NCBI GenBank assembly: GCA_011390155.1
Contig: JAABSW010000022.1
Span: 1 to 35,602, forward strand
DNA: 35,602 bases
Origin: Clostridiaceae bacterium
Lineage (GTDB): Bacteria; Bacillota; Clostridia; Peptostreptococcales; Tindalliaceae
Direction: 5' to 3'
Shown: positions 25,950 to 32,634 of the stretch, one piece after another
Layout of the letters: each line of letters begins with the position of its first letter
Numbering within the stretch: position 1 is the stretch's first letter
Translations under genes and position numbers: made by a program
Notes under the pieces: generated by a model
Seen by the model: the letters and a program-made list of their open reading frames with translations, nothing else
Database searches by the model: none
What the model was told of the DNA's origin: nothing

Positions 25950-26057
25950 GACTCCCTCTTCTGTAAGAGGGAGATAAGCGGTGCTACGTCCCTGGATAAC
26001 GCATTCTAAACTTCTGATGGAGTTAAAAATCCACCAGAAGCTAAGAATCCTGTTTAT
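25941..26057 (+). ncRNA. Structured intergenic element, copy 2 (solo omega-RNA/IS605 right-end-like)
   Basis: A long stem pairs CACCGCT (25941-25947) with AGCGGTG (25977-25983) and, inside it, CTCCCTCTT (25952-25960) with AAGAGGGAG (25965-25973); it includes the last codons and stop of the MCP gene. Then come GTGCTACGTCCC, GCATTCTAAAC and a second hairpin CTTCTGATGGA (26011-26021) with TCCACCAGAAG (26030-26040), ending GCTAAGAATCC. The order 'GTGCTACG..CCC, CATTCTAAAC, hairpin, GCTAAGAATCC' is what I remember from the 3' scaffold of TnpB omega-RNAs at the right end of IS605-type elements. No transposase or tnpB is present. Part of it recurs at 9413-9458. Confidence 0.48.
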
Positions 26058-26080
26058 AAGGAAATAGTCGTCACAGACTC

Positions 26081-26240: not shown

Positions 26241-26267
26241 TTAGCACTCGACTAAGGTGAGTGCTAA
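26241..26267. promoter_or_regulatory. CIRCE operator (HrcA binding site)
   Basis: TTAGCACTC (26241-26249), nine bases, GAGTGCTAA (26259-26267) is a perfect CIRCE. HrcA bound here would repress groESL outside heat stress. Confidence 0.98.
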
Positions 26268-26654: not shown

Positions 26655-28301
<1,647 letters not shown>

Positions 28302-28302
28302 T

Positions 28303-28326
28303 TTGTAAAGTTAATTAACTTTACAA
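28303..28326. repeat. Perfect 24-bp palindrome just after groEL
   Basis: TTGTAAAGTTAA (28303-28314) is followed directly by its exact complement (28315-28326), two bases after the groEL stop. No T-run follows. It could be a hairpin in the groEL 3' end or a protein-binding site. Confidence 0.75.
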
Positions 28327-28356
28327 CCGCTTTTCAATTAAAAAATAATTTATTAT

Positions 28357-28397
28357 GGAAACCGGAGAAGTCGAAAGACAACTTCGGTTTTCCTTTG
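28357..28397 (+). terminator. Terminator of groESL
   Basis: GGAAACCG (28357-28364) pairs with CGGTTTTCC (28385-28393), with an inner GAAGT-AACTTC pairing, then TTTG. Confidence 0.72.
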
Positions 28398-28451
28398 TAT
28401 ATCAACGTATAGAGCGAATTAAAAAAATGGCGATAAAATTCAAAAAAGAAC

Positions 28452-28480
28452 TTGCAAACTATTCTCTCATTTGCTATAAT
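28452..28480 (+). promoter_or_regulatory. Strong promoter upstream of the tandem-repeat region
   Basis: TTGCAA (28452-28457), exactly 17 bases, perfect TATAAT (28475-28480) with a TGC extension. No gene with a ribosome binding site follows until 29035. Transcription would begin near 28487 and run into the repeats. Confidence 0.82.
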
Positions 28481-28550
28481 GAACTTAAGGAAGACTCCTT
28501 CCTCGAATCCTCTTTCAAAGACGCAAAGACAGTGCAGAGAAGGTAGATTC

Positions 28551-28630
28551 ACCAAGCAACACCAAGCAACACCAAGCAACACCAAGCAACACCAAGCAAC
28601 ACCAAGCAACACCAAGCAACACCAAGCAAC
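28551..28630. repeat. Tandem repeat, 8 exact copies of a 10-bp unit
   Basis: ACCAAGCAAC is repeated eight times without a mismatch. The unit is not a multiple of three. It is directly followed by a different array. Confidence 0.99.
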
Positions 28631-28740
28631 AAAGATTCAAAGATTCAAAGATTCAAAGATTCAAAGATTCAAAGATTCAAAGATTCAAAGATTCAAAGAT
28701 TCAAAGATTCAAAGATTCAAAGATTCAAAGATTCAAAGAA
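28631..28740. repeat. Tandem repeat, 13 exact copies of an 8-bp unit
   Basis: AAAGATTC is repeated 13 times without a mismatch (28631-28734) and ends in a partial unit AAAGAA. Exact identity points to recent slippage and probable copy-number variation among strains. Confidence 0.99.
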
Positions 28741-28895
28741 GTACCGGTAGTACAAAACAGATTTGTTCCTGTACCAGGGAACAGCCACTGGGAATGTAAC
28801 AGTGGTAGATCGCGAAAGAAGGTATTGAATGAGTTTTAGCACCGAAGGAGTGGCAAGACTGCATTGTCTGTCACAAAAAAGAGGATTCATTTCCG

Positions 28896-28943
28896 AATAA
28901 CCGGATCTCTCAGCAGCAATAGGAGATCCGGTTATTATTTTTT
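28896..28943 (+). terminator. Strong terminator after the repeat region
   Basis: AATAACCGGATCTC (28896-28909) pairs perfectly with GAGATCCGGTTATT (28923-28936), then TATTTTTT. Confidence 0.93.
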
Positions 28944-29034
28944 GGAGATGATTTCATAGCGTCTTCTGGTGGACGATCATAGGAGAATTCGGTATAATGG
29001 AAACAATTCATGCATTGAAACAGGAGGGAACAGA

Positions 29035-30380: not shown

Positions 30381-30791
30381 ATGAAGGTATCATTGGAAGC
30401 AGGGTTGTCGGGACGTGCAGCCATACAGGTAACAGAAGAGAAAACGGCTGTGGCTTATGGCAGTGGCGGCGTGGAAGTATTTGCCACACCGGCCATGATC
30501 GGATTAATGGAGAATGCGGCTATGAAAGCAGTAGATCCCTTGTTGCCAGAAGGGTTTGGCACAGTGGGCACCAGGCTGGACGTGCGTCACATGGCAGCCA
30601 CACCCAGGGGATTGAGGGTCTTCGCAGAAGCCAAGCTGGTGGAAGTGAAAGGCAACCGGTTGACCTTTGAAGTCAGCGCCTTTGACGAAGTGGAACGGAT
30701 CGGGGAAGGCCTTCATGAACGTTTTATCATTGAAAAACAGCCTTTTCTCGAAAAAGTAGAGGATAAAAAGAGGGCAAACAGGGACGAGTGA
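30381..30791 (+). CDS. FlK-like hotdog thioesterase
   Basis: The 136-aa protein has the single hotdog fold of the fluoroacetyl-CoA-specific thioesterase (FlK) family. The residues T36 (FATPAMIG), E44 (LMENAA) and H70 (DVRHMAATP) keep the exact spacing (8 and 26) of the FlK catalytic triad T42/E50/H76. Most family members in anaerobes act on other short acyl-CoAs or are untested, so a fluoroacetate role is not implied. The ATG follows GAGGAGG. It is last in the three-gene run before the guaB leader. Confidence 0.87.
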   Translation: MKVSLEAGLSGRAAIQVTEEKTAVAYGSGGVEVFATPAMIGLMENAAMKAVDPLLPEGFGTVGTRLDVRHMAATPRGLRVFAEAKLVEVKGNRLTFEVSAFDEVERIGEGLHERFIIEKQPFLEKVEDKKRANRDE

Positions 30792-30798
30792 ATAAAAG

Positions 30799-30828
30799 CC
30801 GTCACTTAATACAAAACCGTCACTTAAT
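30799..30828. repeat. 12-bp direct repeat upstream of the guaB promoter
   Basis: CCGTCACTTAAT occurs at 30799-30810 and 30817-30828, 18 bases apart, ending two bases before the -35 box. It may be an activator or repressor site. Confidence 0.7.
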
Positions 30829-30859: not shown

Positions 30860-30896
30860 TTTGTTCAACTATAGATTCAATGATATTTAGATATGA

Positions 30897-30966
30897 CGCT
30901 CATATAATACCACGGATACGGCGGGTAGTTTCTACGAGGAAACCGTAAATTTTCTCACTATGGGTG
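30897..30966 (+). ncRNA. Purine riboswitch, guanine type
   Basis: The aptamer has CATATAAT, the P2 loop GGATACGG, AGTTTCTAC, the P3 loop CCGTAAA and ACTATGGGTG. P1 pairs CGCTCATA (30897-30904) with TATGGGTG (30959-30966). The base at the ligand-selecting position in J3/1 (ACTATG) is C, which favours guanine or hypoxanthine over adenine. P2 has a bulged A, and its loop has C where U is common. A terminator follows before guaB, so guanine should switch guaB off. Confidence 0.92.
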
Positions 30967-31033
30967 AAAATAAGTTAATGTCAAACAGCCAGGGTTGCAT
31001 GATCAATGACATCATGTTTCTTTGTCTTTTTAA

Positions 31034-32634
<1,601 letters not shown>

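Follow-up and report, generated by a model that had tools for sequence, protein, structure and literature searches.

The closest known kind of arrangement to the one described here is the STRR insertion in the cyanobacterial RNase P RNA, where short tandem repeats reportedly occur within a structured RNA gene. The trnL group I intron of Nostoc is said to contain degenerate heptanucleotide repeats. Repeats are also found in the antitoxin RNAs (ToxI) of type III toxin-antitoxin systems, whose unit of about 35 nt folds as a pseudoknot, and in CsrB-like protein sponges, which carry GGA in the repeated element. The raiA motif RNA, or ModT (RF03072), is described as an abundant RNA of the Clostridia (PMC11706538).

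We have analyzed a window of 35,602 nt from a Clostridiaceae bacterium, in which two perfect tandem arrays lie between groEL (26661-28301) and a gene encoding an aldo/keto reductase. The best reading of the apparent transcript, called the array RNA below, is a structured RNA, probably noncoding, whose closed loop contains a hypermutable minisatellite slot. Like the STRR case, a structured RNA gene here tolerates short tandem repeats, and by our own definition of that kind (a structured RNA that is conserved and has repeats in a variable loop only) the array RNA belongs to it. Unlike that case, where the host is RNase P RNA, the array RNA has no Rfam match and its arrays are mostly perfect, locus-specific in our sample and built of units that are swapped from species to species. 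The Nostoc trnL intron is likewise a structured RNA with a variable element containing short repeats, but the host there is an intron, whereas the array RNA is predicted to be free-standing. With ToxI it shares its short length and the placement of tandem repeats between a promoter and a terminator; it differs in its perfect units of 7-10 nt, which change between species. Like raiA/ModT, it is a structured RNA of the Clostridia that is not one of the classical housekeeping RNAs. A partial literature search by literal matching returned no description of the array RNA, and the words 'tandem', 'repeat' and 'groEL' are absent from the main text of the ModT paper (PMC11706538).

The array locus downstream of groEL

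The first-pass annotation, made from the sequence alone, described eight exact copies of ACCAAGCAAC and 13 exact copies of AAAGATTC, preceded by an extended -10 promoter and followed by a terminator. Tandem Repeats Finder (TRF) and the sequence itself confirm all of these features (Table 1). Nothing contradicts its further statement that no ribosome binding site with an ATG occurs in or before the arrays; such a site, resembling a Shine-Dalgarno sequence, comes after them. What it missed was the closing helix around the arrays, this site with its ATG and 23-codon ORF, and the presence of the conserved element, with other arrays, in related bacteria. The RNA element is real and larger than was described.

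Table 1. Features of the array RNA locus, in window coordinates
Feature	Position	Strand	Basis or remark
Sigma-70-type extended -10 promoter	28452-28480	+	TTGCAA-17-TATAAT, TG before the -10
5' hairpin AGGAAG...CTTCCT	28488-28503	+	Predicted fold; just after the inferred transcription start
CTCCTTC, possible pseudoknot partner of 28844-28850	28495-28501	+	Alternative to the 5' hairpin
Closing helix P1a, 5' arm (partner 28880-28888)	28505-28513	+	Invariant in seven genomes
Closing helix P1b/P1c, 5' arms 28520-28522 and 28527-28537 (partner 28859-28872)	28520-28537	+	P1c covaries
Array 1, eight exact copies of ACCAAGCAAC (10 nt)	28551-28630	+	TRF, 100% matches
Array 2, 13 exact copies of AAAGATTC (8 nt), then a partial copy	28631-28734	+	TRF, 100% matches
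Three-way-junction domain	28760-28811	+	Closed by 28760-28764/28807-28811
Shine-Dalgarno-like GAAAGAAGG, ATG 6 nt later	28814-28831	+	Conserved as GAAAGARGG in f1
Possible 23-codon ORF, stop at terminator base	28829-28900	+	Open in 7/7 f1 genomes
GAAGGAG, possible pseudoknot partner of 28495-28501	28844-28850	+	Invariant in seven f1 genomes
Closing helix P1c/P1b, 3' arm	28859-28872	+	Fold, f1 alignment
Closing helix P1a, 3' arm	28880-28888	+	Fold, f1 alignment
Intrinsic terminator, stem 28897-28909/28923-28935, then T run	28897-28943	+	Fold; stem covaries

The promoter and much of its spacer are conserved in the alignment of all seven genomes of the family of the window (f1). The terminator hairpin (28897-28935) has 15 pairs in the predicted fold and a loop of 11 nt; a consensus terminator scan, with a loop limit of 8, made no call there. 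In its own genome the array element is a single-copy sequence by DNA search. The downstream gene product matches Pfam PF00248 (Aldo_ket_red) with weak Fer4 matches in addition, and has a 4Fe-4S-type tail.

Comparison with Rfam 15 returned nothing over the gathering score at the locus in the window, at five f1 loci or at the f3 and f6 loci (two other families, see below). Below threshold were ncr952 at 28281-28420, which is outside the RNA (21 of 100 bits), MIR8024 on the array of one f1 relative (G002) and mir-9424 on the terminator hairpin of one f3 genome, G055 (33 of 90 bits). The array RNA is not the raiA motif RNA: RF03072 matches were found in 17 of 18 genomes (16 over the cut-off; none in G022), all of them elsewhere than at the array locus and, in the window genome (G000), on contig C98. 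A type III antitoxin RNA was rejected as well, the downstream gene being a PF00248 reductase and not a ToxN nuclease and the units being 10 and 8 nt long. The copies are exact and head-to-tail with no unique spacers, which is not the make-up of a CRISPR array. A CsrB-like sponge does not fit either, as GGA is absent from both ACCAAGCAAC and AAAGATTC, whatever the register; outside the arrays GGA is present.

Several other features of the window were recorded. Two riboswitch aptamers were found, one of the FMN type at 296-414 (RF00050, 120 bits) and one of the purine type at 30880-30980 (RF00167, 76.5 bits), the latter upstream of an ORF (31072-32634) that reads by eye as IMP dehydrogenase and preceded, at 30791-30828, by 2.2 copies of an 18-nt direct repeat with CCGTCACTT. 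The protein encoded at 30381-30791 matches the fluoroacetyl-CoA-specific thioesterase FlK (PF22636, 135 bits). Before groES is an inverted repeat, TTAGCACTC-N9-GAGTGCTAA (26241-26267), which we take to resemble the CIRCE operator of HrcA. A short hairpin at 26012-26060, similar by eye to one between the array RNA and the reductase gene of G006 (L016) and of the form CTTCTGATGGAGTTAAAA...TCCACCAGAAG, may be a small dispersed element.

Pairing and covariation around the arrays

The ends of the RNA pair around the arrays, and this pairing covaries. In the fold of 28487-28945 (z = -6.7), a long-range helix between 28505-28537 and 28859-28890 encloses both arrays; the 205-nt tail folded alone gives z = -5.1. 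The three-way-junction domain contains two hairpins, 28766-28781 and 28784-28806, and the second is strongly covarying. The promoter, the 5' hairpin, both arms of the closing helix, the junction domain and the terminator are all conserved in the f1 alignment (n = 7).

Across this alignment 97.6% of 413 cells are paired in the stated structure, and pairing falls to 47.7% or less if the partner strand is slid. Both sides have changed in 17 of the 59 pairs (four in the closing helix, two in the junction, five in the second hairpin and six in the terminator) versus 9.3 +/- 1.6 in shuffles, none of 500 of which reaches 17; this test is inflated by the relatedness of the sequences, and both the alignment and the structure were set by us. 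One of the five covariation measures, further pair types, has no excess (36 versus 36.8 in shuffles). The possible pseudoknot is paired in all seven genomes and almost invariant; since P1a and this pseudoknot hardly vary, they prove nothing by themselves. For all 18 full-length RNAs from the three families, the 5' and 3' ends pair with each other more strongly than the 5' end does on average with 3' ends from other families, and in 17 of the 18 more strongly than with any of these; the exception is G022.

Distribution and turnover of the arrays

A DNA search places the element between groEL and the aldo/keto reductase gene in all three genomes of the genus and all seven of the family (f1, two genera). 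As grouped here, f1 joins Anoxynatronum and Tindallia, which NCBI assigns to the Clostridiaceae and the Tindalliaceae, respectively. A covariance model, R1, built on six of the seven f1 RNAs (G003, with N's in its array, was left out), finds the RNA in seven of 393 genomes of the order at E 0.001 with strict filters, that is, in all of the f1 genomes and none of the other 386. Over 391 genomes of the class, R1 has six matches outside f1 with E values of 0.001-0.009, none convincing, where about four would be expected by chance at the cut-off of 0.01; the parts read of three of the six loci lack the groEL-type array layout. Loss of promoter, tail and terminator in close relatives would have spoken against the first-pass annotation of a separate promoter-to-terminator unit, probably noncoding; all three are kept, and this supports it.

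Because R1 is confined to f1, the DNA downstream of groEL was surveyed in 70 genomes of 12 families, in stretches of 1.0-2.2 kb (104 bases in G054) that on short contigs reached back into groEL. Perfect arrays of at least four copies occur there in 7/7 f1, 6/19 f3 and 1/4 f6 genomes and in none of the 37 genomes of f2, f4, f5, f7 and f9-f12. One of the three f8 genomes has an array, a 15-mer directly at the groEL stop, in a layout different from that of the array RNA. An extended -10 promoter precedes the arrays of f3 and f6; in G097 it is a variant missed by the pattern. The next gene reads again as a reductase in G063 (f3) and in G011, G022 and G033 (f6).

With or without an array, the RNA is present in nine of the 19 f3 genomes having the groEL locus (G047, G055, G063, G068, G073, G091, G097, G102 and G107), the copy in G068 being about 11 kb from groEL. 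It was not found in the other ten, nor in longer stretches of six of them. A second model, R2, built on five f3 RNAs, detects a sixth, G107, at 1.3e-7. Its match in G061 (f11, 7e-4) was dropped, as the sequence has no array and no such promoter and looks coding by eye. When the RNA of G055 was compared with 20 f3 genomes, 11 had a match; G055, G047, G091 and G068 were accepted, those in G102:C85 and G130 look coding by eye, and those in G040, G117, G019 and G097:C6, together with small second hits, were not counted. A DNA search with the f6 version over the order returned five f6 genomes and two matches of 39-40 bases in f2. A pattern scan of viral contigs had no matches, and groEL had none on plasmids. 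Neither model, R1 or R2, picks up the families of the other, and the f3 RNA of G063 escapes R2; therefore, the common descent of the f1, f3 and f6 versions is something that we infer, from position, promoter, closing helix and slot. Degenerate AGTAGT/GAAGTA repeats of a similar style lie away from groEL in G112 (contig C82), at about 1.3-1.6 kb of locus L147 on the minus strand; these were not counted and are possibly a relocated relative of the array RNA.

The slot between the 5' arm and the 3' domain is filled differently in the f1 species, each represented by one genome. The window genome has the 10-mer ACCAAGCAAC and the 8-mer AAAGATTC (8.2 and 13.8 copies by TRF), and G001 has 13 copies of the same 10-mer. 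In G002 the 10-mer (3.7 copies) is followed by an 8/7-mer array of AAAGATTC/AAAGATTT and then by the 7-mer AAGATTT. Both G003 and G004 have GAGTAGTT, in about 16.9 units with an N gap and in 14.1 units, respectively; G005 has 15 copies of AAAGAAGT and G006 has 11 of GAGTAGTACC. By eye, G005 keeps an unexpanded form of the array sequence of G006 and vice versa, so the two arrays had separate origins. Within f1 the slot thus holds at least four clearly distinct units (ACCAAGCAAC, AAAGATTC, AAAGAAGT and GAGTAGTT/GAGTAGTACC).

This turnover takes place between ends that are nearly identical. For example, outside the arrays the window genome and G002 agree at 63/64 and 145/147 aligned positions (11 gap positions), and the ends of G003 and G004 at 106/106 and 131/137, yet the arrays differ in both pairs. 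The four f6 RNAs also have conserved sides and a hypervariable middle: the ends of G011 and G022 are identical at 193/213 and 219/226 positions, and their middles are 122 versus 54 nt long. In G011 the middle is 12 copies of AAGTAGTAC, in G033 and G058 it consists of degenerate repeats of 25-29 nt, and G022 has no array at a TRF score of 50. These patterns support in part the earlier idea that the arrays arise by slippage and differ in copy number between close relatives. Two arrays side by side, singled out at first as unusual, are indeed present in the window, but they are one case of a wider pattern in which many units fill the slot. A second, partly degenerate array, a 13-mer with five perfect copies, lies between the RNA terminator and the reductase gene of G011 (L086).

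Fourteen of the 18 full-length RNAs have a tandem array with a TRF score of at least 50, and the units differ between species; this set omits G050, where the RNA is split over two contigs, and G073 and G097, whose contigs end at the array. The four below that score are G047 and G068, with no tandem repeat listed, and G102 and G022, with weak ones only. No motif is common to all units, though many contain AAG or AGTA. For 16 hand-listed arrays with 14 distinct units, permuting the unit gives arrays with no more structure than the real ones; this comparison omitted AAAGATTT of G002, AGAAGTT of G091 and the long degenerate repeats of G033 and G058. The purine content of the arrays (0.60-0.88 in 11 RNAs) is little above that of the rest of the RNA (0.50-0.67). 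Neither comparison supports selection for a lack of structure or for purines in the arrays.

Arrays of this kind are by no means widespread in these genomes. A sample of 1.22 Mb from ten genomes of the three families has 12 entries for perfect arrays of at least six copies with a unit of 5-40 nt, and all of them are in the array RNA; G003 makes up two of the 12 because N's split its array, and the sample consists of stretches around or on the locus contigs, with only the 35.6-kb window from the window genome. Six further entries have 4-5 copies: two in the array RNA, one in the reductase leader of G011 and three elsewhere. This locus specificity is more notable because short tandem repeats are, on average, not enriched in bacterial genomes in a tree-of-life survey, as reported there (PMC12699852). 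Strong transcription or selection for the array may explain why arrays favour this loop.

Explanations for the array RNA

We consider it probable that an independently transcribed structured RNA gene, roughly 350-700 nt long with its terminator, lies downstream of groEL in f1 and, with the same layout, in part of f3 and of f6. Its 5' and 3' ends would zip into a long closing helix, and the f1 RNAs also have a small folded domain close to the 3' end. From the 5' arm to this domain, the loop would be a slot in which short local seeds are duplicated and expanded, decay in part and are replaced; the arrays would most likely arise through slippage during replication or through tandem duplication. 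Selection would hold the ends and the domain and leave the loop sequence free, so that an array is kept or tolerated in an RNA that depends on its ends and domain but on no particular sequence in the loop. An array that does work in the RNA would then be an interchangeable spacer or a low-specificity single-strand platform and not a specific recognition sequence.

Several observations sit less easily with this reading. The arrays in all seven f1 genomes look more regular than mere tolerance predicts, and the ORF in the tail could be a sign of an mRNA leader; on the same side are the ten f3 genomes where the RNA was not found, the four full-length RNAs below a TRF score of 50 and the degenerate repeats of G033 and G058. 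Another suggestion, possible but in our view doubtful, is that the array is itself the selected working part, a length-tuned spacer or a multivalent platform for a low-specificity RNA-binding protein such as Hfq or a KH protein, for which any short unit that multiplies would suffice. In its favor, arrays occupy one and the same slot throughout and are present in 7/7 f1 genomes and 14/18 full-length RNAs, no other array of at least six copies was found in the 1.22 Mb, the births appear independent and many units share AAG or AGTA. But the RNAs of G047 and G068 do without a listed repeat and those of G102 and G022 have only weak ones, there is no common motif, and with no sign of selection against structure and a purine content near that of the rest of the RNA, the platform idea gains no positive support. 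Extended further, the array RNA might tentatively be seen as a new bacterial RNA class with a conserved frame and a rewritable module, in which any short tandem array would serve, selection acting on the multivalency or tunable length that an array provides and not on its sequence, and slippage able to adjust the copy number. The same absence of a common motif and of a structure or purine bias, together with the replacement of the unit in relatives, makes a sponge or decoy for one specific protein or small RNA, as proposed in the first-pass annotation, most improbable: identical tandem units in an apparent transcript would suit it, but the unit is swapped even within one genus (AAAGAAGT in G005, GAGTAGTACC in G006 and GAGTAGTT in G003 and G004).

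The tail ORF is more likely noncoding, and we regard it as unlikely that the transcript is the mRNA of a tiny protein of about 23 aa, with a long structured leader, a variable spacer, a Shine-Dalgarno site, the ORF and a terminator. In its favor are the conserved GAAAGARGG-6 nt-ATG and a frame that is open in all seven f1 genomes, with its stop kept as TAA or TGA; each of the two shifted forward frames is interrupted by one or more stops in every genome, although for one of these frames the sole stop in G000, G001 and G002 is the opening codon. In f3, G047 and G055 have an ATG/GTG behind AAAGGA. Codons with a single difference are synonymous versus not in a ratio of 52:55 in the ORF frame and of 46:90 and 22:90 in the shifted frames, a mild point in favor, the pairs compared not being independent. 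Against it, the variable sites are spread evenly over the codon positions (12, 11 and 12 of 22 each), and the majority of the invariant codons fall in helix arms or in the possible pseudoknot. By eye the start is missing in G102 and the frame is shifted in G063, and the peptide has no Pfam match. A TTG frame in f6 likewise has no third-position excess (5, 5 and 2 variable sites in five genomes). Finally, array-prone intergenic DNA with no RNA function, its promoter and structure conserved merely by short divergence time, would account for arrays that recur by mutation; it hardly deserves credence given the both-side pair changes in four helices, the f6 ends that stay while the middle turns over, and a closing helix maintained across families.

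The structured RNA gene with a replaceable loop is therefore the reading that we prefer, and its function would presumably be noncoding. The array slot could serve for strain typing. It also hampers assembly, as seen in the contigs of G073 and G097, which end in or just past the array, and in the N's of G003 and G091. If expressed, the array RNA would represent a family not described before, at a conserved place in the genome, and it would offer a natural experiment on whether tandem repeats in a functional RNA are debris, a spacer or a platform.
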